Origin: Anaerolineaceae bacterium
Lineage (GTDB): Bacteria; Chloroflexota; Anaerolineae; Anaerolineales; Anaerolineaceae
DNA length: 64,000 bases
Reading direction: 5' to 3'
Assembly: GCA_016841445.1 (NCBI GenBank)
Contig: JAENZD010000001.1
Location: forward strand, 868,001-932,000
In this document: positions 20,091 to 34,911 of the stretch, piece by piece
Layout of the letters: every line of letters starts with the position of its first letter
How positions within the stretch are numbered: position 1 is the first letter of the stretch
Position numbers and translations under genes: made by a program
Notes under the pieces: generated by a model
The model's input: the letters and a program-made list of their open reading frames with translations, nothing else
The model's database searches: none
Told to the model about the DNA's origin: nothing

Positions 20091-23000
20091 TCATATCGAA
20101 ATGAAATTAGGCCTGATTGGTGAAACATCAACAATAATCGGACTCGGATTTAGAAAAACAAGCGTAATTTCAGGGCTGATGTTTAAGATGTTTGAAATTG
20201 CGTAATAATACATAGAAATCTGCAAAAGATATTTTTCCTTCAGTTCAGCTAAATTTCCCTCCGTGGCATAATCTGTTTTCCAATCAATGAGGTGCCAATG
20301 GTCAGATTGATCTTGATATAACAAATCAACAATCCCGTGGATCATCCCCTTTTCAGACAACCAATTAAAGGGTAATTCAAATTGACATTGCTTTGCAGTC
20401 CGAATTTGTTCAAATAGAGGATGACCCCTAAATTTTGTCAACATATTTTTTAATTTGATTGTAGCTTTATTTATTTGCTTGCCCGTCAATCCCTCTTGTT
20501 TTGAAAATCTTTCTAATATCGTCATTAGATTATCGCTGGTTATTTCGAAAAAAAACCTTTTATTCAAAACGTGGTGAACCACATTTCCCAAAATATGACC
20601 TGGAATATATTCCTCGAATGATGGTTGCTCAGAGTCCCAAACGACGGGTTTGATTTGTGAAATCCCACCTTTCTCCTTTTGAACTTCAGTTATCAAATCA
20701 GTAACACTAATTGATCGAGGGCTTTCCTTTGAGGCAAGAGATTGAGCTAGAAGAGGTATATCTTCTATATGTTGGCGCGAACTAATAGTCTGTTCAATTT
20801 GTTCCAATGGTTCTGGAAGTTCTCTTTGTCTCACCACACGGATTTTATACCGGTCATAGGCATATTCTTCAATTTCATCACCCTCAACGTCTATCTGCCA
20901 ACCTCCTAATATTTCTGGCAACCAGGAATTCTTCTCACCAGGTTGGCCTGAGAGGATTAGCATATCTGCAGCTCGGGTACAAGCAACATACAAGAGCCGC
21001 TTACTTTCTGCTATTTTCAATGAGTTGTCCATCCATTTTGCCCATGTGAAACCTGCCGGATCGGGTTTAATCCAATCACCTTTTTCATCTCTTAACTTGC
21101 ATGCCATTCCAAATTCCGGGTCATGCAGCAAGTACGGTGATCGATTCCTTCCAAATTTATTACTTCCGATATCAGCCAGAAATATAACTGGAAACTCCAA
21201 CCCTTTAGCAGCATGGATAGACATCAACTGTACCGCACCACTTTCAGGTTCCCTGCCCAGTGCTTCTCCCTCTCTGGCCTCTCTTTCCTTAAGATCCCGT
21301 AATTGGGCCAGAAAATCTCCCAAAGCCAAGTTTAATTGATCCCTGGCTTGAGCCATGAACTTCTGTACATTCGAAAGTTTGCGCCCTGTTTCACCATCAT
21401 TGACTGCCAGAACAACTTCATAATTGGTTAGGTCAAGCGCTGTCCTGAGCAATTGCCAAACGTTGACACACCCCGCTATAGGCCATAATGACTCAAGTAT
21501 TTCGAACGTGCGTCGTACCAGATCTGCTTGATCATTGATGGGAGGCTGGGATAATGCAATGCGGAGGGGGATGGATTTTTCAGCCATGGAACCATCAGGA
21601 TTTATCAGGCGTAATCGATAAAGGGTTTCATCACTTAATGAGAAGAGGGGAGAACGCAATGCCGCAGCCAGATTTAAATCATCTTGGGGATTATATAGCG
21701 CATGCAAAAGGGCGACCAAATCCTGTACTTCAGGGCGGACATAGTATCCTCGACCGCTGGAAGTCAGGTATGGTACCGCTGCCGCCTTAAATTCTGCTTC
21801 ATATAACGGCAAATTTGTTGTCGCTCGGAAGAGAACAGCAGCATCCCTGTATTCGAAATTTCGATATGAATTCAGTTCTTTATCCCATACTTTCATTGCA
21901 TTCATTTTTAACTGCAGTATTCTTTGGGCAATCCATGCTCCTTCTGCAATGCGGGCATCTTCAGCACTAATTGTGTTATCTTCCAAATCATTTTCTGGGA
22001 GAAGCATAATTTCCACACAGGGGCTGGGAGCTTCCTCTCCTTTACGATCAGCGACCAAAGGGCCAGGATGTGCCTCAAACACCTGGTGGTTTTCCCCTGT
22101 GATGGGTTGAAGAATGACATTGAACAGATCATTTAGTGCTTCGATTAACCGCTTATGAGATCGAAAGGACGTACTCAAAGGAAGTGGCTCTTGGTGGGTG
22201 ACTTTTTGGATTTCCTGTGCTGTCCTGTTGAAGAAACCAACTTGAGCTTGTCGAAAACGATAAATACTTTGTTTGGCATCACCGACCGTGAACAGCTTAC
22301 CAGCTTCATTGAATGGCGCTAAGAAAGTCACAATTTCCATTTGAACCGGGTTGGTATCTTGGAATTCATCCACCATCAAGTGCTTGATACCATCTAAAAA
22401 TGATTGCAAGCGCAGGGGGCGTGGCTTGATCTGCAGCAACTTAAGCGTTTGATATTCCAGATCATCAAAATCAAGACCTTGTTGCTCATCTTTGAGTTGG
22501 TCATAAACTGTGTTAAGTTCATCCCATATCTGGCGCCATAATTGTAAGTGTTGAGCAGCTTGATAGTCGTATTCACTAATTTCTTGCAAGGCACCAGCTT
22601 TCTCAATTCCTCGGGCTGTTTCGCGTAATACTCTAAGCAATGCTTTTAGATCATCAAGGGCTTCTTTACCATCCCAATTATCTTGTTTCCCACCTCGTAA
22701 ATCGATTTCTTTCCATCGTTCCATAGCTAGAACAAATCCATCATCTGATAATGTCTCTATCCCCTTTTTTGCATTAACAACAACTCCAACCAATTTATCT
22801 GTTGGGTCGAGAATATTTACCAGCGGAATTTCCTGAATTGCAATAATCAAATCGTCATTTTCAGCAAGTTGCTGTTCCCAAAGAGCTTTACGCATTTCTT
22901 CGAGACCTAATTTCCACATTTCAAGTAATTGACTTACATCGGGCAGGCCATCAAATAATCTACGTAGAATCCCTCTTTCGGAAATCAAATTAATCATTTC

Positions 23001-23495
23001 GCCCTGTAGATCACTCACCGTGAGAGAATCCAGTATCTCCAGAGCTGGGTGGTGGGTATCCACCAATTTCTTGATAGCTTCACGCACGGCTTTCTCTCGC
23101 AGCAAGCCGGCCTGCGTTTCATCGAGCACCTCAAATTTAGGGTCAATTTGTGCGGCAATTGCATTTTCCCTTAGGATGCGAGTGCAAAAGCTGTGAATCG
23201 TGCTGATTTGAATCCGGTCCAAATTTCGACGATGTGTTTGCCAGATTGAATCGGATGGATCCTTTAATGCCTTTTGTTCTATTGCCTTTCTAACACGGCT
23301 GCGCATTTCCCGGGCAGATTTGATCGTAAATGTAATGGCAATGATGCTATCGAGGGTCCAATCAGGACGTGTTTCTAGCAGGTGAATGAAGCGTTCAACC
23401 AAAGACCAGGTTTTTCCTGTCCCTGCGCCAGCTTCAACAAAAAGGGCTTGGCCTTCAGTTTCGATAACTCTTGTTTGTTCAGATGTAGGTTTCAT
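20091..23495 (-). CDS. addA: AddA-like UvrD/RecB family helicase-nuclease
   Basis: Large subunit of an AddAB-type double-strand-break resection enzyme, 1134 residues. It has the superfamily 1A helicase motifs EAGAGTGKT (Walker A, about 21-29), AITFTIKSAREMRSRV (motif Ia), MVDEFQDTNPVQ (Walker B, about 375), DAKQSIYRFRQA (motif III) and LMSIHAAKGLEFPVIFLADIG. The C-terminal PD-(D/E)XK nuclease core is GIVDLLYQDQSDHWHLIDWKTDY (about 1055-1077). The ATG overlaps the addB-like stop by four bases (ATGA), so translation is coupled. It loads recombinase-ready 3' ends in known homologues. Full length, no frameshift. Confidence 0.93.
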   Translation of the reverse strand: MKPTSEQTRVIETEGQALFVEAGAGTGKTWSLVERFIHLLETRPDWTLDSIIAITFTIKSAREMRSRVRKAIEQKALKDPSDSIWQTHRRNLDRIQISTIHSFCTRILRENAIAAQIDPKFEVLDETQAGLLREKAVREAIKKLVDTHHPALEILDSLTVSDLQGEMINLISERGILRRLFDGLPDVSQLLEMWKLGLEEMRKALWEQQLAENDDLIIAIQEIPLVNILDPTDKLVGVVVNAKKGIETLSDDGFVLAMERWKEIDLRGGKQDNWDGKEALDDLKALLRVLRETARGIEKAGALQEISEYDYQAAQHLQLWRQIWDELNTVYDQLKDEQQGLDFDDLEYQTLKLLQIKPRPLRLQSFLDGIKHLMVDEFQDTNPVQMEIVTFLAPFNEAGKLFTVGDAKQSIYRFRQAQVGFFNRTAQEIQKVTHQEPLPLSTSFRSHKRLIEALNDLFNVILQPITGENHQVFEAHPGPLVADRKGEEAPSPCVEIMLLPENDLEDNTISAEDARIAEGAWIAQRILQLKMNAMKVWDKELNSYRNFEYRDAAVLFRATTNLPLYEAEFKAAAVPYLTSSGRGYYVRPEVQDLVALLHALYNPQDDLNLAAALRSPLFSLSDETLYRLRLINPDGSMAEKSIPLRIALSQPPINDQADLVRRTFEILESLWPIAGCVNVWQLLRTALDLTNYEVVLAVNDGETGRKLSNVQKFMAQARDQLNLALGDFLAQLRDLKEREAREGEALGREPESGAVQLMSIHAAKGLEFPVIFLADIGSNKFGRNRSPYLLHDPEFGMACKLRDEKGDWIKPDPAGFTWAKWMDNSLKIAESKRLLYVACTRAADMLILSGQPGEKNSWLPEILGGWQIDVEGDEIEEYAYDRYKIRVVRQRELPEPLEQIEQTISSRQHIEDIPLLAQSLASKESPRSISVTDLITEVQKEKGGISQIKPVVWDSEQPSFEEYIPGHILGNVVHHVLNKRFFFEITSDNLMTILERFSKQEGLTGKQINKATIKLKNMLTKFRGHPLFEQIRTAKQCQFELPFNWLSEKGMIHGIVDLLYQDQSDHWHLIDWKTDYATEGNLAELKEKYLLQISMYYYAISNILNISPEITLVFLNPSPIIVDVSPIRPNFISI

Positions 23496-26400
23496 TTCAA
23501 CCCCGCTTTCCTGGCTTTACTGATTGATTGGCGGCTGACTCTGCAGAGCAGTGCATAATCGCAATAGGTTGTGCAGGCATGTTGTCCTCGTATCGATTTT
23601 TCAGTTGCGCTTGGGAAGATCCCAAGACGGATCCTCTGGATATGTTCAAAGGCCTTTAATGCAGCCTGTTGAACATTTGGATCCTCCTTAACCTTTGTAG
23701 AAAAAGATAAACTCCCACTGGAACTTCGCTTGGGTAGATGTCGGTATTCGGATTTGGTTATCATTCCATCCTCATTAGTCATAAAGTTTTCAGCAACTAA
23801 AGCATATAATGCCGTCTGAAATGCTAAACCATTGATAATATCATCTTTTTTATAAGGCGTGCTCCCACTTTTATAATCGATCACCCTATAATTCTCGTGA
23901 TCGTCCTTATCAATCCGGTCAATCACACCTCGTAGATTGAAATATCCTTCGTCCAATGCCACACGAAAAGCACCTTCCACTGCTCCTTTTGTGCCAAACT
24001 TAGCTTCCTGAAGGAAAGGCATAAAATGCCCCATACCTTTTTCACATTCCCAATCCAGATAAGTCTTCAGCATTCGCCGTAATTCATCTTGTTCATAATC
24101 CCATAAAGGTGTCGGTTGAAAACCATAGCGTTTTGGTGCAGATAAAAAAGCGGTGTCGCAGACCGAGTCCAGGATTTCTAAGACAGCTTTTTTATTCTCC
24201 TGGTCCAGCGTCCACCCGTTTTCCTGAATTTTTTGAAGTGTTTTCTCAAGGACAAGATGTAGAAGTGATCCCCGAGTCATAACATCTATTCCATCCTCCG
24301 GCTCTGGATGAGCTTTGAGATCAAGGATGTTATCCGCAAAGAATTTAAAGGGACAATTCCCATAGGTGTTTAATCGGGATGCACTCCAAACATGATCTGA
24401 TCCATATATTTCATTCAATTGGGAGAGAATATCATCTGAAATCAGTACCCCTTCATGTTCACCTGGCGGTCGGTAGCTGTCTCTTTGAGAAATAATTTTT
24501 GATGCTGATTGGGCATATTGATAATTCTTAAGAACCTCATTTGGGACTTCCCTCACCTGGACTTGAGCACAAGCGATAAGGAACTCATTTTGGCTAGCGG
24601 CATCGACAACACTTATTTTGTCGGCAATTGGAATACGTTCCTCGATTAACCCATCAAAGCAAGCCTTTACTGCATCCCAATATGGCGAGGGTTGCCATTC
24701 AGCCCCATATTCATCAATATACGGACGGACCAGAGTTAGTTTATGATTTACATTGCTTAATACCTGCCAGAACAAACTGGCATCATTTTCAGGATTATCC
24801 CGACGTATAGGTAAAGAAAATTTTTCTCGCTCTTTATTAGCATAAAACACATCAGGATCCGGGCGGGTAGGAAATTCTCCTTCTGATAGTCCTAAAACAA
24901 ATAAGTAATCGAAACTTTGAACCCTTCCTTCTGCTAATGGTGCAAAAAGAATTTTTGATTGCGTTTTCCCCGAAGGAATTCTGGTTATTAGAAACTCTGC
25001 AAGCAGATCTTTGCAGTAGTCCTCCCAGGAGAGATCCTGTGATTGATTAACCCACTTGTAAGAATTGTTGACCTTCCTAAGGCAGGTGAGGACTTGTGAA
25101 AGGACTAGTAAATCATGCTCTGATTCTGGGGATTGTTTACAACCATCCAACATCTGGAGAGATGGTTGGTCTGATGGGGTGATTTCTTCAAGTTCATTAT
25201 CATTTGGGAAAACACCTAACAATTTGGTCTGTATCCACCATGTATAATTATGTGGAGTCGCTTCAGATGGTGGGGTTAGATGATCAAAGAATGCATCAAG
25301 CCCTTCCTTGAGTGCTTGGATTTCATCTTCTGGGAGGGTTGAAATAAAGGGTGGGTGTCCCAAATCCTCATCTTCAAAATCCGGGAATACTTCTTGGATA
25401 GGCTGTAGCGCACCAAACCACTGCTCTCTTCCTTCCAAAACCGGTTGCTCCCGGGATAGATGGTCCAGCTGATCAATCTGTTCTAGTGAAAGCCATGGCT
25501 GTTTGATATACGCCGACCGTAGAGCAAGAAAAGTCGAACGCCAGTTATATTCAGGTGCTATCTGCAGCAGGTTGACCAAGTCAAGAACAACTGGTTCTTC
25601 TGCGAGTATCGAATCGTATATTACTGGAATATTATATTCGCTGCACACGGAGTTCATTATTGGGCCATAAACCGATGTGCTATGCGCGAATATACCAATA
25701 GATTCAGGGGAAATTCCTTGTATGAGAAGTTTCTTAATTTCACATAGGGTCTTTCTCACTTCCATTTCTCTTGAAGGTGCTTCAATCATTCTTAGTTCGT
25801 CTGTAGCTCGAGATATTTTAGGAGGTAATTCAAAAAGTTGATCGACCAGATGTGAAAGTGTTGGATTAGTTTTATAGAAATTAGGCAGTTTGACAACTTC
25901 TACCGATAAAGTATCTAATAGAGCATTCTTTGTTTCTAATTGACGCCCCAATGCGAGACTTTCATGATTGCGATGGTTGTCCCATGATAGATAAATCACA
26001 ATTGAACTGAATCGTTTTTCAAGAGCATGTAGAATACGCAATTGAACGGGAGTGAATTGATCATGTCCCAGGACAAACAAAGGACTGTTATGAGTAAATA
26101 GGCTTGAATTATTTTCTAAAGCTTCCGCTGCAATCCATAACCGACCGTCGGGGTCAGCTATGTTTCTTTCATTCATATAAACTTGGTAACGAGAGTAGAA
26201 TTCAGCCAGCTGGTTATCACGCTCGTTAGATTTATTTTGAGCTAATTTCTGGTATTCATCAGGATGAATGCCCTGGCTTTTCATCTCGCGTATCCATGAC
26301 AATAATACTTCTACAAACCCGGGTTTCCCTTGCATTGGTGAAAAGCTGGTGAGCAAACCTTCGCTATTCATATCTGCTAATAAATGCCTGATTAATTTAC

Positions 26401-26659
26401 GAATAGCTGTGTCACTGACAACCTTGGAAGGGTTAGTCGTTTCAAGTAAAATGGCTTCTGCTAAACTATAAAATTGGAATAGATGAATGCCAACACTGTT
26501 ATCTAAACTACTACGTAGATCTTGTATGGCTGAAGAAGAGGGCAAGAGTATCCTGGTTTCAGCAAAAGGGTCATCTTGTTTGATCTGATGAAGTGTAGAA
26601 AAGAGATGTTCTTTAGCATCCCTGAGAATTGATAGGATGAGCTGATGATCATTGGTCAT
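23492..26659 (-). CDS. addB: AddB-like PD-(D/E)XK nuclease subunit
   Basis: Second subunit of the helicase-nuclease, about 1055 residues. The C-terminal nuclease core is GVIDRIDKDDHENYRVIDYKSGS (about 908-930), flanked by four cysteines (GNCPFKFF near 766; CTTYCDYALLC near the end) that should bind an Fe-S cluster as in AddB. The N-terminal helicase-like region begins ILSILRDAKEHLF and, unlike B. subtilis AddB, shows no Walker A motif, so it is probably an inactivated helicase with a structural or scanning role. I prefer ATG 26659 to an upstream TTG at 26686; neither has a strong ribosome site. First gene of the addBA pair. Confidence 0.88.
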   Translation of the reverse strand: MTNDHQLILSILRDAKEHLFSTLHQIKQDDPFAETRILLPSSSAIQDLRSSLDNSVGIHLFQFYSLAEAILLETTNPSKVVSDTAIRKLIRHLLADMNSEGLLTSFSPMQGKPGFVEVLLSWIREMKSQGIHPDEYQKLAQNKSNERDNQLAEFYSRYQVYMNERNIADPDGRLWIAAEALENNSSLFTHNSPLFVLGHDQFTPVQLRILHALEKRFSSIVIYLSWDNHRNHESLALGRQLETKNALLDTLSVEVVKLPNFYKTNPTLSHLVDQLFELPPKISRATDELRMIEAPSREMEVRKTLCEIKKLLIQGISPESIGIFAHSTSVYGPIMNSVCSEYNIPVIYDSILAEEPVVLDLVNLLQIAPEYNWRSTFLALRSAYIKQPWLSLEQIDQLDHLSREQPVLEGREQWFGALQPIQEVFPDFEDEDLGHPPFISTLPEDEIQALKEGLDAFFDHLTPPSEATPHNYTWWIQTKLLGVFPNDNELEEITPSDQPSLQMLDGCKQSPESEHDLLVLSQVLTCLRKVNNSYKWVNQSQDLSWEDYCKDLLAEFLITRIPSGKTQSKILFAPLAEGRVQSFDYLFVLGLSEGEFPTRPDPDVFYANKEREKFSLPIRRDNPENDASLFWQVLSNVNHKLTLVRPYIDEYGAEWQPSPYWDAVKACFDGLIEERIPIADKISVVDAASQNEFLIACAQVQVREVPNEVLKNYQYAQSASKIISQRDSYRPPGEHEGVLISDDILSQLNEIYGSDHVWSASRLNTYGNCPFKFFADNILDLKAHPEPEDGIDVMTRGSLLHLVLEKTLQKIQENGWTLDQENKKAVLEILDSVCDTAFLSAPKRYGFQPTPLWDYEQDELRRMLKTYLDWECEKGMGHFMPFLQEAKFGTKGAVEGAFRVALDEGYFNLRGVIDRIDKDDHENYRVIDYKSGSTPYKKDDIINGLAFQTALYALVAENFMTNEDGMITKSEYRHLPKRSSSGSLSFSTKVKEDPNVQQAALKAFEHIQRIRLGIFPSATEKSIRGQHACTTYCDYALLCRVSRQSISKARKAGLK

Positions 26660-26849
26660 GGTTGTTTGAATCCTTCGCTGAGACAAATTTTTTTACCCAA
26701 CAAGATTGATTAATCAAATTTCCTCTCATAAATTTTAACAGTATTTATGGTGTCCCCACTCTGAGGAAGTGGTGGAAAAATTAGGAAGTAGGAAAGACAA
26801 AAAGGGAATACTTCCTTACTGAAATATCAATAATAAATTCGTATATTTC

Positions 26850-27431
26850 TCAATATTTTTCCTCTAGAAATTCTTTACCTTCTTTTGTGATTTGCCAGTT
26901 TCCCTTACCCTCGTTATTTGATACCAGATTTTCATTTTTGAGATTCTGAAGTGTATGAATCGCAATGCTTTTCCAAACAGCTAATTTCTCATTTGAAGGA
27001 ATAGTTTTCAGATCTGTTTCAGTTAATTCCCCTTCAATTAGACTTTCAATTTCGGCTAGTAGATCTTTTCTCTTTGCACTGCCCCCCAGGTTGATGAGGG
27101 CTTGAAGAATGGGTTTTTTGATGGTTTGGTTATTGATATGGGGTTCAGAACGTAACATATTCAGGAATTCGCGGGTGATTTCTTTACGCTCCTCCTGAAT
27201 TTCCGTTGGTAATGCATTTGAGGAAAATCCCATCCCGAGCCAATCTTCACGGAGCTTCATGACCTGATCCATTAGCGTTAAAACCTTCTGCGCTTTTAAG
27301 ATGATTTCTTTTGCTTCCTCGTAATTTTGGCCTTCGATAAACTGAGCACCTTTTTGATTTAAGACAGGGAGAAATTTCTCCAGATCAGAAATTAAATTGT
27401 CAAAAGATTCGAGCACTTGATCACTTTCCAT
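26850..27431 (-). CDS. Hypothetical protein with Mrr-N-like winged helix
   Basis: A 193-residue soluble protein. The N-terminal half (about 1-100) is helical and acidic without a recognised domain. The C-terminal half (about 105-193: PILQALINLGGSAKRKDLLAEIE, LTETDLK, WKSIAIHTLQNLKNENLV, GNWQITKEGKEFLEE) has the pattern of the Mrr N-terminal winged-helix domain, a DNA-binding module of restriction-system proteins. The Mrr nuclease domain is absent. GGAG lies seven bases before the ATG. It sits upstream of addBA on the same strand but is separated by about 190 bases, so co-transcription is uncertain. Confidence 0.65.
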   Translation of the reverse strand: MESDQVLESFDNLISDLEKFLPVLNQKGAQFIEGQNYEEAKEIILKAQKVLTLMDQVMKLREDWLGMGFSSNALPTEIQEERKEITREFLNMLRSEPHINNQTIKKPILQALINLGGSAKRKDLLAEIESLIEGELTETDLKTIPSNEKLAVWKSIAIHTLQNLKNENLVSNNEGKGNWQITKEGKEFLEEKY

Positions 27432-28280: not shown

Positions 28281-28304
28281 CTTAGATAACCAAGGCAGGT
28301 GAAT

Positions 28305-29279
28305 ATGTCCCAAAGGCAGCAGTTGGAACGCATCATGGAAATTGACCGGCGCATTAGGGGAGGGGAGTATCCCAATGCGGACAAGATGGCGGAGATCCTG
28401 GAGGTCAGTAGGCGGGTGATCTACAATGACCGCAGTTTCATGATCTACCGTTTGGGTGCGCCGATCGAGTATGACCGGGAGCACGGCGGCTGGTATTACA
28501 CCGACCAGACCTGGATCCTGCCTGGTATGATGGTGACTGAAGGTGAGCTAATGGCGTTTTTCCTGAGTATGGAAATCTCAAAACGCTATATTGGGACGGA
28601 CCTGGAGTCGCCGTTACGAGCGGCTGTCGATAAGATAGCCAGGGTGGTCAAGGGTTCGGTGAGTGTGGACACGAATGTTCTCCATTCACATTATACATTC
28701 TCCGGCCCCACATCACTGGAAGTTAATGAAGCCGTATTGTTGGATCTGCACCATGCCATCATCAATCGCCAGCAGGTTTGGATGCGTTATTTTACAGCTA
28801 AAAGGGGTGCGTATTCCGAACGTGTGATCTTCCCATACCACATCCACAACTACATGGGGGATTGGTTCCTGATTGCTTATGATACGCTGCGAAATGATTT
28901 CAGGATTTTCCTGATGGGGCGGATCGAAAAATGGCAGGTCTTACCTGAACGTTTTGTCCGGGATGCGGATTTTTCCGCTGCTGATTGGATTGGGAGTGCT
29001 TTCCAACTGCACGGCGGAGAAGAAGTGATCGATGTGGCGATCTGGTTCAGCAAAGTGAGGGCGCAGTTCATCCGGGAACGGCTGTGGCATCCATCACAGA
29101 AGATTGAAGAAAGAAAGGACGGCAGTTTGATCCTGCACATGCAGACAGCCGGCATGGTTGAGGTGAAGAACTGGGTTCTTCAGTTTGGCTCCCAGGCGGA
29201 AGTGCTCGCTCCCGAACAACTCCGGGATGCGTGTAGGGCGGAAATTGCGAATATGATGGAGAAATACAAAACGGATTAG
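28305..29279 (+). CDS. WYL-domain transcriptional regulator (YafY/DeoR-like)
   Basis: A 324-residue cytosolic regulator. An N-terminal helix-turn-helix (about 5-60: RQQLERIMEIDRRIRGGEYPNADKMAEILEVSRRVIYND) is followed by a WYL domain (about 130-215: QVWMRYFTAKRGAYSERVIFPYHIHNYMGDWFLIAYDTLR) and a C-terminal extension domain to the end. WYL proteins sense nucleic acid or nucleotide-like ligands and often regulate defence or damage genes. I chose ATG 28305 because AGG lies five bases before it; a GTG at 28299 is possible. It heads the plus-strand group leading to the radical SAM gene. Its codon use is visibly more GC-rich than that of the LRR gene downstream. Confidence 0.9.
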   Translation: MSQRQQLERIMEIDRRIRGGEYPNADKMAEILEVSRRVIYNDRSFMIYRLGAPIEYDREHGGWYYTDQTWILPGMMVTEGELMAFFLSMEISKRYIGTDLESPLRAAVDKIARVVKGSVSVDTNVLHSHYTFSGPTSLEVNEAVLLDLHHAIINRQQVWMRYFTAKRGAYSERVIFPYHIHNYMGDWFLIAYDTLRNDFRIFLMGRIEKWQVLPERFVRDADFSAADWIGSAFQLHGGEEVIDVAIWFSKVRAQFIRERLWHPSQKIEERKDGSLILHMQTAGMVEVKNWVLQFGSQAEVLAPEQLRDACRAEIANMMEKYKTD

Positions 29280-29710: not shown

Positions 29711-30781
29711 ATGATTCAAAAAATTTTTGACGAAAAATATAACTTCATCACCATGTTCAACCCACAGACTGGCTCGTATGTTCGGACGGGCATTCTGAAT
29801 GAGTTAGGCTGGGATTCTGGCGTGGATCCTTTCCAAGCTTCTTTCCCACACCTGATCGATGTGGGGATCATGGGGCACTGCATCCATGGCAAGACAGGTT
29901 TATGTGTGAAAGCCGGAGTGGGATGCTACCAGAGCGGACTGACTGTCACCCAGCCAAATATGTCCATCGAAGATTTTCGGTGGATCGCAGAACAGTGCAA
30001 GGGCAGAGTCAACCAATTTGCCTTGGGCGGCAGGGGAGATCCCGACCAGCATGAACATTTTGAAGAATTGCTTGCCGCCTGTCGCGAAAATGAACTTGTC
30101 CCCAACTTTACCACCTCAGGTTATGGATTCTCTCCCGAAATTGCGCGGTTATGCAAGGACTATTGTGGAGCGGTGGCGGTGAGCTGGTACCGGAATGATT
30201 ACACCCTCAGAGCAATAGAGATGCTTTTGGAAGCCGGCGTGAAGACCAATATTCATTATGTACTTGGGAAGAATTCGATTGATGAAGCGATCACACGGTT
30301 AGAAAATGATGACTTCCCGCAAGGGATCAATGGAGTAGTCTTCCTGCTGCATAAACCGGTCGGTTTGGGTACAAAGAAAAATGTTCTTTCTCCCCATGAC
30401 CCGCGAGTAGCTGCGTTTTTCAGGCAGGTGGATCGCGGAAGGCGCGGTTTCAAGGTGGGTATGGACAGCTGTACAATACCGGGGGTTGTGACCTTCTGCA
30501 AGAATGTGATCCCGGAAGCGATCGATACCTGCGAAGGGGCGAGGTTTAGCTGTTATATCGGGGCGGATATGATCATGACGCCCTGCAGCTTTGATCAGGA
30601 CAATTGTTATGGGGTGTCATTGCGGGATTTTTCAATTGAAGAAGTTTGGAACAGCGAGACGTTTGATCGTTTCAGGTCGGTGCTGAAGAATCACTGCCCG
30701 GATTGTGAAAAGCGAGAGAATTGCATGGGTGGATGTCCGTTGAAGCCGGGGATTGTGCTGTGCAAGGCAGTTAACGATTGA
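29711..30781 (+). CDS. Radical SAM/SPASM-type protein with atypical cysteine spacing
   Basis: A 356-residue protein. Instead of the common CxxxCxxC, the proposed cluster-binding cysteines are C57-x7-C65-x6-C72 (GHCIHGKTGLCVKAGVGCYQ). A barrel-like region follows (QFALGGRGDPDQHEHFEELLAACR..., SWYRNDYTLRAIEMLLEAGVKTNIHYVLG), and a SPASM-like cysteine-rich tail (about 275-351: FSCYIGADMIMTPCSFDQ, EVWNSETFDRFRSVL, CPDCEKRENCMGGCPL). SPASM enzymes typically modify peptides or proteins through auxiliary Fe-S clusters. The next gene, 19 bases downstream, encodes a Ser-run protein that may be its substrate. The ribosome site is weak. Domain assignment is firm in the tail and moderate for the unusual cysteine motif. 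Confidence 0.8.
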   Translation: MIQKIFDEKYNFITMFNPQTGSYVRTGILNELGWDSGVDPFQASFPHLIDVGIMGHCIHGKTGLCVKAGVGCYQSGLTVTQPNMSIEDFRWIAEQCKGRVNQFALGGRGDPDQHEHFEELLAACRENELVPNFTTSGYGFSPEIARLCKDYCGAVAVSWYRNDYTLRAIEMLLEAGVKTNIHYVLGKNSIDEAITRLENDDFPQGINGVVFLLHKPVGLGTKKNVLSPHDPRVAAFFRQVDRGRRGFKVGMDSCTIPGVVTFCKNVIPEAIDTCEGARFSCYIGADMIMTPCSFDQDNCYGVSLRDFSIEEVWNSETFDRFRSVLKNHCPDCEKRENCMGGCPLKPGIVLCKAVND

Positions 30782-30800
30782 CAAAAGATAGAGGAGAAGC

Positions 30801-31328
30801 ATGAAGATCAGAACGGATTTTGTGACGAATTCCAGCAGCTCAAGTTATGGTGAGGTTGTGATTGATAACCCGGTTTTGCTCGAAATATTGTCCAAATACA
30901 AAACTTTAGGGACATTTGGGGAGGATATGGTTTTTGAAATCGGTGATTTTTACAGAGAGGATTCGGATGTAAGCAAATCTGAGATAGATCCGGACATTAA
31001 GACCAAGACGCCTGCTATTCACACAGATCATGAGGATTTTGATTCCATCAGAGTCCCCAGATCTTTGGACGAGGTACTGGAAAATTTGATTGAGTTGTTG
31101 TATTATCACTGTTGGTTTTTAGTAGGGAACTGCGATCCAGATCTCTATAACCGGTTATTAGAAGAATTACGCAAAAGAGAGAATGAAATCAAACAGGCGT
31201 TTTTTCAAATAAAATGGTGGTTCCGGCAAGAATTATATTGGGGGCGATTTGGCTGTTGGGAATTCAAATATGATCAAGAAAATGGTGAATACTATCATGA
31301 AGAAGAAACAGGAGGTTTAGATTATTAA
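30801..31328 (+). CDS. Hypothetical protein with N-terminal DFVTNSSSSSY motif
   Basis: A 175-residue soluble acidic protein that begins MKIRTDFVTNSSSSSY (five serines at 11-15). From memory, many uncharacterised bacterial proteins begin with a near-invariant version of this motif followed by unrelated bodies, so the motif looks like a recognition or modification tag. The body is helical with conserved-looking aromatics (YYHCWFLVGNC, IKWWFRQELYWGRFGCWEF). GGAG precedes the ATG. It lies immediately after the radical SAM/SPASM gene, suggesting an enzyme-substrate pair. Function unknown; modification of the serines is inference. Confidence 0.75.
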   Translation: MKIRTDFVTNSSSSSYGEVVIDNPVLLEILSKYKTLGTFGEDMVFEIGDFYREDSDVSKSEIDPDIKTKTPAIHTDHEDFDSIRVPRSLDEVLENLIELLYYHCWFLVGNCDPDLYNRLLEELRKRENEIKQAFFQIKWWFRQELYWGRFGCWEFKYDQENGEYYHEEETGGLDY

Positions 31329-31401
31329 TTTTGCTAGACTGCCAAAAATAATTTAATAAATATATTTTGTGAAGTTTTATGAGGCGATGAAAGGCAGGAA
31401 A

Positions 31402-34400
31402 ATGGAAAACGATTTCATCATTAAAAAAGAATTTGGCCACAATTTCTTGATAAAGTACGTTGGGCTTGATTGCATACCTACGATCCCAGAAAAGGTAGAG
31501 ATCATAGGTAGGAGTGCATTTGAAGATTGTGACTTTGTAACCAGTATAATAATTCACAAAAACGTGAGGGAAATTCGTGAGCATGCTTTTTCTCATTGCA
31601 GCAACCTTGAAAATGTTGAAATGCTGTCTGAGGATTTGAATAGTATATCGCCATTAGGTGTTAAAACCATTGGTAATTTTGCTTTCTTTGAGTGCACATC
31701 CTTGTCCAAGATTCGGTTTCCTAAAACGTTGTTAAGAATTGGAGATGCAGCCTTTGCTGGGTGCGAGAGATTATCAGAAGTCAATATTCCTAATATCATT
31801 GTCATAGCATCTAGAGCGTTTTCTGGTTGCTATTCTTTAAAAAATGTGGATATAAATGGGAATTATGGGAAGTTGGAATTAATTAGCGAATATGCTTTTT
31901 CTTCATGTGAGAGTCTCACGTCACTAACTATAAGAGATAAAGTTTATACAATTGAGAAGGGCGCTTTTGCGGAATGTAATTCTCTATCCGAAGTATTTAT
32001 TAAAGGTCCTTTAAATGATATTAAAGACTACGCATTTAAAGATTGCAGAAACTTAGTAAGCTTTATCGTACCATCAGGCGTGGGTCGAATAAAAGAAAAT
32101 GCTTTCGAAAATTGTCCTCTTTTTAGAAAAATTCAGCATTTCATTGATCTTGAACAAGTTGTCGAACAGATTCCATTCGAGGTGCACGAAAAAGGAGAAA
32201 AGAATAGCTTCATTATTATTAATGGTGAACTTATAACTTATTACGGTCACAATTCGGAAATTGTTATTCCAGAACAAGTGAGTTTAATTACGGAGAAATG
32301 TTTCATAGATAATAAAAATATAAAATCTGTGATTTTTTCGGAAAGAATCAGAGAGGTTGGCCTATCAGCTTTTTCGGGTTGCACCAATCTTTTTTCCGTG
32401 ATCTTATTCGAAGGCTTACAGAAAATCGGTAAAGAAGCTTTTTCTGAATGCAAATCTATTACCCGTTTAGAGATTCCAGCAACCGTAAAACATATTGGAA
32501 GTTCTGCATTTTCCGGTTGTGAGAACTTAGTTGAGATAGTAATCCCAGATGGAATAGAAGTAATCCATGATGGGGTATTTAAGGGATGCAATGCCTTAAA
32601 GAAGGTCCAATTACCAGGAAGTGTCAAGGAAATTGGGCAAGATGCATTTTCTGGTTGTGAGAACCTTGTTGAGATAGTAATCCCAGATGGAATAGAAGTA
32701 ATCCATGGTGGGGTATTTAAGGGATGCAATGCCTTGATAAAGATTCAATTACCAGCAAGTGTCAAGAAAATTGGAAGTTCTGCATTTTCTGGTTGTGAAA
32801 AACTTATAGAGATAGTAATCCCAGATGGTATAGAAGTTATCCATAATGGAATATTTGAGGGTTGCACTGCCCTAAAGAGGGTCCAATTACCAGGAAGTGT
32901 CAAGGAAATTGGGCAAGATGCATTTTCTGGTTGTGAGAATATCTCATCATTTAATATTCCAGAAGGTGTTCAGACGATAGGTGAGCAGGCATTTCAGAAT
33001 TGTTCAGGTCTTTTGTCTGTAGTAATTCCTGAAAGTGTACAGATTGTAAAGCAAAGAGCGTTTGAGGGGTGTACTTCTTTATCTGATGTGCGAATATCTT
33101 CCACACATATTGAGATTAATGAGAAAGCCTTTTCAGGAACACCTTTCCTGGAAAATCAACATAGTCATGCAATAATTATTAATAATGTGCTGTTATCATA
33201 TCTGGGGGAGGAAACTGAGTTTTGGATTCCTGATAATGTTAAAATTATATCTAAACGGGCTTTTGAAGGTAATAAAATTCTGCATAGAATTATCATTCCA
33301 AAAAGCGTTAAAACAATTGGGAACAGTTCGTTTTTTGGATGTTCCTCTTTACAAAGGGTTGATATCCCTGATAGTGTTAGAGAAATTGGTGAATATGCCT
33401 TTGATAGTTGCAGTGGTCTTAATACACTTGAGATTATGGATGGTATTAGGAAAATTGGACGGTTTGCCTTCTTTCGATGTTCCTCTTTACAAAGAGTTGA
33501 TATCCCCGATAGTGTTAGAGAAATTGGTGAATATGCCTTTTGTCGTTGCAGTGGTCTTAAAACACTTGAGATTATGGAAGGTGTTAGGAAAATTGGAAAG
33601 GGTGCCTTTTATGGATGTTCCTCTTTGCAAAGTGTTGATATCCCTGGAAGCGTTAAAGAAATTGGTGAAAGTACGTTTGAAGATTGTAGTGATCTTAAAA
33701 CCCTTGTGATTATGGATGGTATTAGGAAAATTGGACGGGAAGCATTTTCTGGATGTTCCTCTTTAAAGAGTGTTAAGATCCCTGGGAGTGTAAGCGAAAT
33801 TGGTGAATCTGGATTCGCAAATTGTATTAGCCTTGAAAACCTCGAGATAGTTCAATGCCTTAGTAAAATAGGAAAGTTTGTTTTTCAGGGCTGTGAGGCC
33901 TTATCCACAATAATTATTCAAGGAGGATTAAAGGGGATTGGTATTAATTCTTGTAAAAATCGAGAAATTAGACAAACGAGCATAATATACGAACAAAAGT
34001 TGCCAATACATATACTTATTGATGATTTGCAACCCGACGTCGTTGACGAACGAGATATCGAAAATAAAATAATTTATAGATTATTTATAAAAAATAAAGA
34101 TTCAGACGATCCATATGTTGAATTCATATCGCGATTAATTGGCGGTTTGGTTCATCACCTTTCAGAATATGATGCACTCTTTTCAAAATCCAATCAAATA
34201 CCAATCGAAAAAGCAGAGATTGCCCTCGCAAGATTACGACGTCCAATCGAATTAATCGCAGAATATGAAGAGGAGTATCAATCCTACCTTGAAAATTTTG
34301 CGCATTATCATATACCAAATCTAATCAAAGAGAATGACAGTGATATGATCTGTTCACTGGCTGAATTCGACGCATTTTATCATCAGGATATTAATGCCTT

Positions 34401-34911
34401 TATTGAACAGGCCAACCAGCTTGGGAAACCTGATATCCAGGCTTTCTTGATGGATTACAAGCATAAAACCTGGGGAAAAAGCCCAGTACCATGCGTCGAA
34501 CCAAGTTATGAATTCAATCTCGAAGATTACTTCATCCATGAAAACATTGATGGTAGTTTAACTGTCCAGAGATATCTCGGGGATGAAGGGAACGTGACTT
34601 TTCCAACACAAATTGATGGTAAACCTGTGAATAAAATTAATGGCTGGAACATCGGCGATGTCAAGATCAACCTGTTTGCAGAAAATAGAGATAAAGTTGA
34701 ATCCGTGGTGATTGAGGATGGGATCGAGGTGATTGGTGAGAGAGCATTTTTAGAATGTCATAACCTTGGCAGCCTGACCATCCCTGCCAGTGTGAGGAGG
34801 TTCGGCAAAGAAGCCCTTTATGGTTGTGAAAACCTCGTCATTCATGCACCTGAAGGCTCGTATGCGATTGAGTATGCCAAAGAAAATGACATCAAGTTTG
34901 AGGAAATCTAA
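31402..34911 (+). CDS. BspA-type leucine-rich-repeat protein (LRR_5), no signal peptide
   Basis: A 1169-residue solenoid protein made of about 23-residue LRR_5 units (pattern IP.SV..IG..AF..C..L..V.I). The first block is about 15-240, a short non-repeat insert about 240-275, the main array to about 850, a helical non-LRR insert about 855-1065, then a short repeat block and the usual C-cap ending APEGSYAIEYAKENDIKFEEI. I chose ATG 31402, which begins MENDFIIKKEFG directly before the first repeat with AGGA upstream; earlier in-frame starts at 31369 and 31387 are weaker. Known BspA-like proteins are mostly secreted or surface-bound, but no signal peptide, anchor or sorting motif is visible here, so a cytosolic scaffold is possible. 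It follows the Ser-run protein gene by 73 bases. Confidence 0.9.
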   Translation: MENDFIIKKEFGHNFLIKYVGLDCIPTIPEKVEIIGRSAFEDCDFVTSIIIHKNVREIREHAFSHCSNLENVEMLSEDLNSISPLGVKTIGNFAFFECTSLSKIRFPKTLLRIGDAAFAGCERLSEVNIPNIIVIASRAFSGCYSLKNVDINGNYGKLELISEYAFSSCESLTSLTIRDKVYTIEKGAFAECNSLSEVFIKGPLNDIKDYAFKDCRNLVSFIVPSGVGRIKENAFENCPLFRKIQHFIDLEQVVEQIPFEVHEKGEKNSFIIINGELITYYGHNSEIVIPEQVSLITEKCFIDNKNIKSVIFSERIREVGLSAFSGCTNLFSVILFEGLQKIGKEAFSECKSITRLEIPATVKHIGSSAFSGCENLVEIVIPDGIEVIHDGVFKGCNALKKVQLPGSVKEIGQDAFSGCENLVEIVIPDGIEVIHGGVFKGCNALIKIQLPASVKKIGSSAFSGCEKLIEIVIPDGIEVIHNGIFEGCTALKRVQLPGSVKEIGQDAFSGCENISSFNIPEGVQTIGEQAFQNCSGLLSVVIPESVQIVKQRAFEGCTSLSDVRISSTHIEINEKAFSGTPFLENQHSHAIIINNVLLSYLGEETEFWIPDNVKIISKRAFEGNKILHRIIIPKSVKTIGNSSFFGCSSLQRVDIPDSVREIGEYAFDSCSGLNTLEIMDGIRKIGRFAFFRCSSLQRVDIPDSVREIGEYAFCRCSGLKTLEIMEGVRKIGKGAFYGCSSLQSVDIPGSVKEIGESTFEDCSDLKTLVIMDGIRKIGREAFSGCSSLKSVKIPGSVSEIGESGFANCISLENLEIVQCLSKIGKFVFQGCEALSTIIIQGGLKGIGINSCKNREIRQTSIIYEQKLPIHILIDDLQPDVVDERDIENKIIYRLFIKNKDSDDPYVEFISRLIGGLVHHLSEYDALFSKSNQIPIEKAEIALARLRRPIELIAEYEEEYQSYLENFAHYHIPNLIKENDSDMICSLAEFDAFYHQDINAFIEQANQLGKPDIQAFLMDYKHKTWGKSPVPCVEPSYEFNLEDYFIHENIDGSLTVQRYLGDEGNVTFPTQIDGKPVNKINGWNIGDVKINLFAENRDKVESVVIEDGIEVIGERAFLECHNLGSLTIPASVRRFGKEALYGCENLVIHAPEGSYAIEYAKENDIKFEEI
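32506..32960 (+). repeat. 138-bp tandem repeats, block 1 inside the LRR gene
   Basis: The anchor GCATTTTCTGGTTGTGA-like sequence recurs at 32506, 32644, 32782 and 32920, exactly 138 bases apart. Each unit encodes 46 residues, i.e. two LRR_5 repeats. Copies are nearly identical at the DNA level (for example GTAATCCCAGATGGAATAGA), showing recent duplication or gene conversion. Confidence 0.85.
33341..33800 (+). repeat. 138-bp tandem repeats, block 2 inside the LRR gene
   Basis: GTTCCTCTTTACAAAG-like anchors recur at 33341, 33479, 33617 and 33755, again exactly 138 bases apart but with a different sequence from block 1. The shared period means the duplicating unit is the same two-repeat module. 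Confidence 0.85.

Follow-up and report, generated by a model that had tools for sequence, protein, structure and literature searches.

A radical SAM/SPASM enzyme and an N-terminal tag shared by unrelated proteins in bacteria and large phages

Adjacent genes for a radical SAM/SPASM enzyme and a tagged protein

We analysed a 64,000-nucleotide stretch of DNA from an Anaerolineaceae bacterium (assembly GCA_016841445.1, contig JAENZD010000001.1, positions 868,001 to 932,000 of the forward strand), hereafter the window. On the plus strand, it contains a gene for a radical S-adenosylmethionine (SAM)/SPASM enzyme of 356 aa (29711..30781), recognised from its open reading frame (ORF), matches to Pfam SPASM and PHROG 7293, and an AlphaFold2 (AF2) model. 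Nineteen bases separate its stop codon from the start of a second ORF, which encodes a 175-aa protein beginning MKIRTDFVTNSSSSSYGEVV (30801..31328, plus strand). The ribosome-binding site of this second gene, GAGGAG, lies inside the gap (30791..30796, plus strand). The original prediction had pointed out the two ORFs and their spacing, and both were found as described.

The first 16 residues of the second protein, MKIRTDFVTNSSSSSY (30801..30848, plus strand), form the tag with which this study is concerned. It was delimited by the consensus of bacterial and phage sequences, its exact N-terminal placement and the diversity of its synonymous codons. Searches of the body of the protein against Pfam, NCBIfam and PHROG returned no match. 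Orthologues occur in two other loci, L005 and L035, each adjoining an orthologous enzyme. The genome from which the window derives (3.35 Mb) has one enzyme and one full tag pattern, and these are adjacent.

The tag occurs on many unrelated proteins

A 16-residue tag, MKIRTDFVTNSSSSSF, is common to many otherwise unrelated proteins. Its consensus in bacteria and phages is MKxRx[DG]FV[TS]NSSSSSF: N10-S11-S12 are invariant, the following serines are near-invariant, and conservation stops at approximately residue 18. The bodies of 557 unique tagged proteins fell into 142 BLAST clusters (97 singletons), between which remote homology is possible. These data confirmed the suggestion that the five-serine leader heads many unrelated proteins. 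The tagged proteins are mostly of ∼80 to 920 aa and number from one to more than a dozen per genome. Most of the bodies belong to no Pfam family; the recognisable ones include BspA-type leucine-rich repeats (LRR_5), BRCT domains (L032:9089-10393 and L034:9089-11104) and a BamB-like propeller (L008:9089-11845). In a model of a tagged family of 124 aa, residues 1-11 were disordered, with a predicted local distance difference test score (pLDDT) below 50, and the fold began at approximately residue 17. A fold search with this 124-aa body yielded no significant match in the PDB or BFVD. We know of no parallel to a portable tag at the N-terminus of full-size proteins that are otherwise unrelated. 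In the open-licence literature, where absence is not proof, we found no description of the tag, its pairing with the enzyme, the CX7CX6C motif, phage SPASM enzymes or the PHROG numbers.

To characterise the placement of the tag, we used 197 unique tags from loci fetched by their enzyme, a set that is independent of the start-anchored tag pattern. In 195 of these, a start codon lay six or seven residues ahead of F7, and 193 of the 195 were on the strand of the enzyme. Each of the five serine positions uses all six serine codons, and Arg4 uses all six arginine codons. The conservation therefore acts on the peptide. This bears on the possibility that conservation at the start reflects an element acting at the nucleotide level or in translation, such as a translation-enhancing or nascent-chain signal, and that the enzyme is a chance neighbour hitchhiking in mobile regions. 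The strict placement at the start codon and the one-strand tandem arrays of tagged genes would fit such an element, but the codon diversity at the five serines and Arg4 indicates selection on the peptide, and we consider this explanation highly improbable.

Enzyme and tag co-occur in bacteria

We scanned bacterial genomes, one per species, for the enzyme. The 74 bacterial enzyme loci were mostly from Clostridia, the others from Bacteroidales, Chloroflexota, Coriobacteria, Synergistaceae and Desulfovibrionaceae. A tagged gene, with a start like MK[IFVY]RxDFVTNSS, was present in the fetched flank of 70 of them; the remaining four loci lie at the end of a contig or hold a fragment of the enzyme. 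Two arrangements were found. In the first, the tagged gene lies directly downstream of the enzyme gene, often overlapping its end, and the bodies are very different. In the second, which occurs in Lachnospiraceae and others, a conserved tagged protein of 124 aa is encoded directly upstream of the enzyme.

At the level of whole genomes, the tag pattern was matched in 27 of 29 that carry the enzyme. In the two misses, the tag (MKVRSDF, L047) escaped the pattern through codon choice or the enzyme is broken (L078). Among 299 Lachnospiraceae genomes, the enzyme was found in six and the tag pattern in three, all three within the six, while none of the 293 enzyme-less genomes matched the pattern (Fisher p = 4.5e-6). 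Direct reading of the six Lachnospiraceae enzyme loci revealed a tag adjoining the enzyme at five of them, the remaining one having a truncated enzyme. Neither enzyme nor tag was present in 299 of 301 Chloroflexota genomes. The genome of the window has both, and in genome G012 a distant enzyme adjoins a MRIRTGFVSNSSSTSF protein. Acetatifactor muris has a second, divergent enzyme (L279), which also lies beside its own tagged gene. A reversed control pattern gave no matches in any genome or virus set in which the long tag pattern was used, which indicates that the tag is not a product of chance. Two tags, in L497 and L498, occur in enzyme-less stretches of genomes that have the enzyme elsewhere, and the enzyme therefore likely acts in trans.

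A comparison of neighbour families identified no third gene common to the loci. Similarly, no conserved protease, leader peptidase or exporter was found at the loci; ORFs resembling ABC transporters lie on the same strand and no more than 3 kb away in a few loci only. Beside the distant enzymes of L241 (region 648-1058) and L279 and their tagged partners, we observed a third gene of ∼140 aa.

Enzyme and tag co-occur in large phages

The first 160 viral stretches fetched contained 430 tagged ORFs, often in tandem, with the consensus MKIR[N/T/S][G/D]FV[S/T]NSSSSSF[IV][IV]. A search with close relatives detected the enzyme in two viral contigs only, which at first spoke against a pairing. The picture changed with a profile derived from distant members, which identified 55 viral enzyme loci. 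Together with L080, these make 56 loci. At 40 of them the flank contained between one and eight tags, all on the strand of the enzyme. Matches of the distant enzyme in Microcystis and Thermus phages lack a SPASM tail, and the stretches fetched around them contain no tag; we treated them as other radical SAM enzymes and did not count them.

We then examined the pairing in both directions. Of 30 viral contigs that measure 100 kb or more and were selected by the tag only, 25 encoded the enzyme, all with E <= 1e-71, as compared to none of 20 similar-size controls picked by a PhoH pattern (best match 7.5e-7, fragmentary). Conversely, the tag pattern was found in 26 of 30 viral records chosen by the enzyme and in none of 20 controls, and the reversed pattern in none of 50. 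The respective p values, 2e-9 and 2e-10, treat contigs as independent and so somewhat overstate the significance. Two of the four misses among the enzyme-chosen records, L323 and L329, have tags outside the reach of the pattern. Cultured phages with both enzyme and tag include RB43, RB16, KP15, CfP1, Lw1 and GuL6; the N-terminal peptides expected for RB43, RB16 or Lw1 are MKIRSGFVSNSSSSSF. The tagged protein of RB43 was present in 175 annotated phage records and the enzyme in 168, and their counts per genus almost coincide.

Overall, the co-occurrence of enzyme and tag, on which the original prediction had asked to be judged, is strong in both bacteria and phages, and the observation is much larger than the window. 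Hitchhiking leaves unexplained the absence of the tag from the 293 enzyme-less Lachnospiraceae genomes and from the 20 viral controls, and the tags on other contigs of enzyme-bearing genomes.

The phage data also raise the possibility that another factor reads the tag as an address, for example for packaging into the capsid, for a membrane or for a compartment of the phage, and that the enzyme of the same module acts on some other substrate, protein or small molecule. Large phages repeat the tag on numerous accessory proteins encoded in tandem, which is consistent with such a role, as is the separation of tags and enzyme in RB43. By contrast, no third gene common to the loci was found, bacterial operons often comprise only the enzyme gene and the tagged gene, which overlap at start and stop, and the fold of the enzyme is nearest to those of peptide maturases (see below). 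We judge this explanation to be improbable.

Tag dialects follow the enzyme clades

The tags occur in two dialects, DFVTN and GFVSN. In a tree of the enzymes (88 rows), the 28 viral GFVSN rows fell inside one branch (support 100). Most DFVTN rows, bacterial and phage alike, grouped with the remaining enzymes; L323 was an outlier. One row, L479_t, was mis-extracted and its long branch is false. Considered jointly, dialect and source required 17 changes on the tree versus 50 in shuffles. The dialect thus follows the clade of the enzyme and not the division between virus and cell. On these sequence comparisons, the agreement supports a direct recognition of the tag by the enzyme.

The enzyme represents a new family of radical SAM/SPASM enzymes

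The window enzyme matched Pfam SPASM above the cut-off (22.4 versus 21.5 bits) and Pfam Radical_SAM below it (23.6 versus 29.5 bits). Its SPASM region (30470..30763, plus strand) contains eight cysteines, each invariant in 68/68 full-length relatives. The SPASM-type tail proposed from the sequence is upheld by these data. By alignment and analogy with the ligands of the anaerobic sulfatase-maturating enzyme, anSME (PMC5682303), C254, C274, C292 and C342 were assigned to auxiliary cluster I and C329, C332, C338 and C351 to auxiliary cluster II. The cluster I cysteines are invariant in 71/71 aligned members, phages included. Phage members have often lost cysteines of cluster II, and many retain only the cluster I set.

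The SAM-cluster loop, C57-x7-C65-x6-C72 (29879..29926, plus strand), is real: all three cysteines are invariant in the 68/68 full-length relatives of the window enzyme's clade. The spacing, described earlier as unusual, is so within this clade, but distant members have the canonical Cx3Cx2C. Since these members keep the canonical spacing, we interpret Cx7Cx6C as a loop insertion that does not mark a new fold. The spacing is unusually variable for one family, extending from Cx3Cx2C to Cx7Cx6C and longer (enzymes of L288-L341).

The window enzyme matched PHROG 7293 (E 6.5e-18), as did 7/7 members tested. PHROG 7397 was matched by 29 of 84 tagged proteins, the window's own not among them. These two PHROGs give neither a function nor a link between them, and bacterial members are outside their scope. 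The best score against the NCBIfam radical SAM equivalogs, 39.5 bits, was to TIGR04317, a tungsten-cofactor oxidoreductase maturase; this is far under the cut-off of 380 bits, and no tungsten oxidoreductase lies near the window enzyme. The distant members scored below the cut-off for every NCBIfam equivalog listed. One of them, L279, was weakly viperin-like according to PADLOC, but its score of 47 versus an NCBIfam cut-off of 180 led us to reject this identity. With its SAM-cluster cysteines, the SPASM cysteine sets, and a partial TIM barrel and SPASM fold, the enzyme is a new family within the known radical SAM/SPASM superfamily.

The AF2 model (pLDDT 94.9) most closely resembled the structures of SuiB (Z 26.0 over 322 residues), SkfB (24.2) and anSME (21.6), followed by ChlB, CteB and PqqE. 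The modelled fold is thus nearest to those of peptide and protein maturases. As to a RiPP recognition element or PqqD-like domain, residues 1-47 of the model, with which no separate search was made, form short strands only.

As a radical SAM/SPASM enzyme, anSME shares the eight auxiliary-cluster cysteines and their CX2CX5CX3C spacing with the enzyme described here. A single anSME also serves several full-size proteins through a short motif (PMC5682303). The two differ in that the anSME motif, C/S-x-P/A-x-R, is internal, at the active site of sulfatases, and is absent from the tag consensus; here the tag is strictly N-terminal and the tagged proteins are non-sulfatases. The SAM loop of anSME is Cx3Cx2C, in contrast to the Cx7Cx6C of the window enzyme. 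In anSME, the catalytic Asp directly follows the third cysteine of auxiliary cluster I (PCDF). The corresponding motif here is PCSF, with the serine invariant in 71/71 members. We therefore ranked the conversion of serine to formylglycine by the anSME mechanism low, as an invariant Ser stands where anSME has its Asp.

The closest structures include SuiB, SkfB, CteB and ChlB, the maturases of StrA, SKF, sactipeptides and ranthipeptides, whose genes likewise adjoin that of a substrate bearing a conserved leader at its N-terminus. Unlike the substrates of these maturases of ribosomally synthesised and post-translationally modified peptides (RiPPs), the tagged proteins have folded bodies, are of full size and occur many per genome, and they are accompanied by no conserved protease or exporter; they are not short precursors with a leader and a small core. 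An alternative reading is that the tag is a docking leader only and that the enzyme modifies a residue in each body, in the manner of a RiPP leader and core. SuiB-type RiPP enzymes depend on leader binding (PMC5682303), and SuiB has the nearest fold. This explanation is at odds with the 142 body clusters, in which no shared target motif was seen and which include folded LRR, BRCT and propeller proteins, and with the end of the conserved stretch near residue 18. We therefore consider it unlikely.

Proposed action of the enzyme on the tag

We favour the reading that one enzyme acts on the N-terminal tag of many proteins and modifies the tag itself, and hold it to be fairly probable. The enzyme probably recognises the tag and modifies it oxidatively. 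More specifically, it would capture the flexible, disordered first 16 residues of one or many substrates, and the 5'-deoxyadenosyl radical and auxiliary cluster I would bring about a two-electron radical oxidation of the tag, with cluster I taking up an electron as in SuiB (PMC9012708). The site most likely lies in the [T/S]-N-S-S-S-S-S-F stretch, because N10-S11-S12 are invariant, the later serines near-invariant and F16 conserved. Different bodies would in this way gain the same altered N-terminus, as a common address, anchor or cap. The mark may serve in this capacity by itself, as no other gene is common to the loci. The original prediction had cast the tag as the site of recognition or modification: the pairing and the dialects fit recognition, whereas we infer the covalent change, its location on the serines and the role of the marked proteins.

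Several points weigh against the enzyme modifying the tag. Common descent alone could produce the agreement between dialect and clade. In the enzyme, whose N-terminal part was not separately searched, we recognised neither a RiPP recognition element nor a domain for peptide binding. The enzyme was not detected in five of the 30 tag-bearing viral contigs, which are possibly incomplete or rely on host enzymes. A 352-kb viral enzyme contig, G695 (the record of L330), had no tag under the pattern used and represents either a variant tag or a true exception. Finally, the tags of RB43-type phages lie ∼20 kb from the enzyme.

In its broadest form, the proposal is that large phages, and with them some bacteria of gut and sediment, possess a general system for marking N-termini, in which a single radical SAM enzyme would chemically alter a fixed 16-residue tag. 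The proteins bearing the tag, from one to over a dozen and unrelated to each other, would all receive the same non-canonical N-terminus, and this would direct their fate. We regard the arguments for and against this broad form as evenly balanced. If true, it would represent a phage protein-tagging chemistry with a compact, transferable tag, and may reveal what the accessory proteins share. Many large-phage proteins now called 'hypothetical', hundreds in all and some of them from cultured phages of E. coli and Klebsiella, would acquire a feature in common, an enzyme to go with it and a biochemistry open to test. For radical SAM enzymology, the family offers a natural series in its differing cysteine spacing and variable loss of auxiliary cluster II.

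Neighbouring genes

In the window, a gene for a BspA-type LRR_5 protein of 1180 aa (31369..34911, plus strand; Pfam LRR_5 1.8e-244), a possible third component, begins 40 bases downstream of the tagged gene. We rejected such a gene as a constant third part: of the 48 bacterial loci whose sequence extends far enough downstream, only 4 have an LRR gene in the 3 kb that follow. A first clustering had hinted at an LRR-type neighbour at 24 loci, a number probably inflated by single linkage through the repeats. The LRR gene is thus an optional component. A direct fusion of the tag to LRR_5 is found in other bacteria, at L021, L023 and L029.

In PADLOC, the window genes had no match. Upstream of the enzyme are genes for an Mrr_N-domain protein (26850-27431) and a WYL/WCX regulator (28299-29279). 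Two long genes on the minus strand (20091-26686) resemble, on reading their translations by eye, an AddA/UvrD-type helicase and an AddB-like nuclease.
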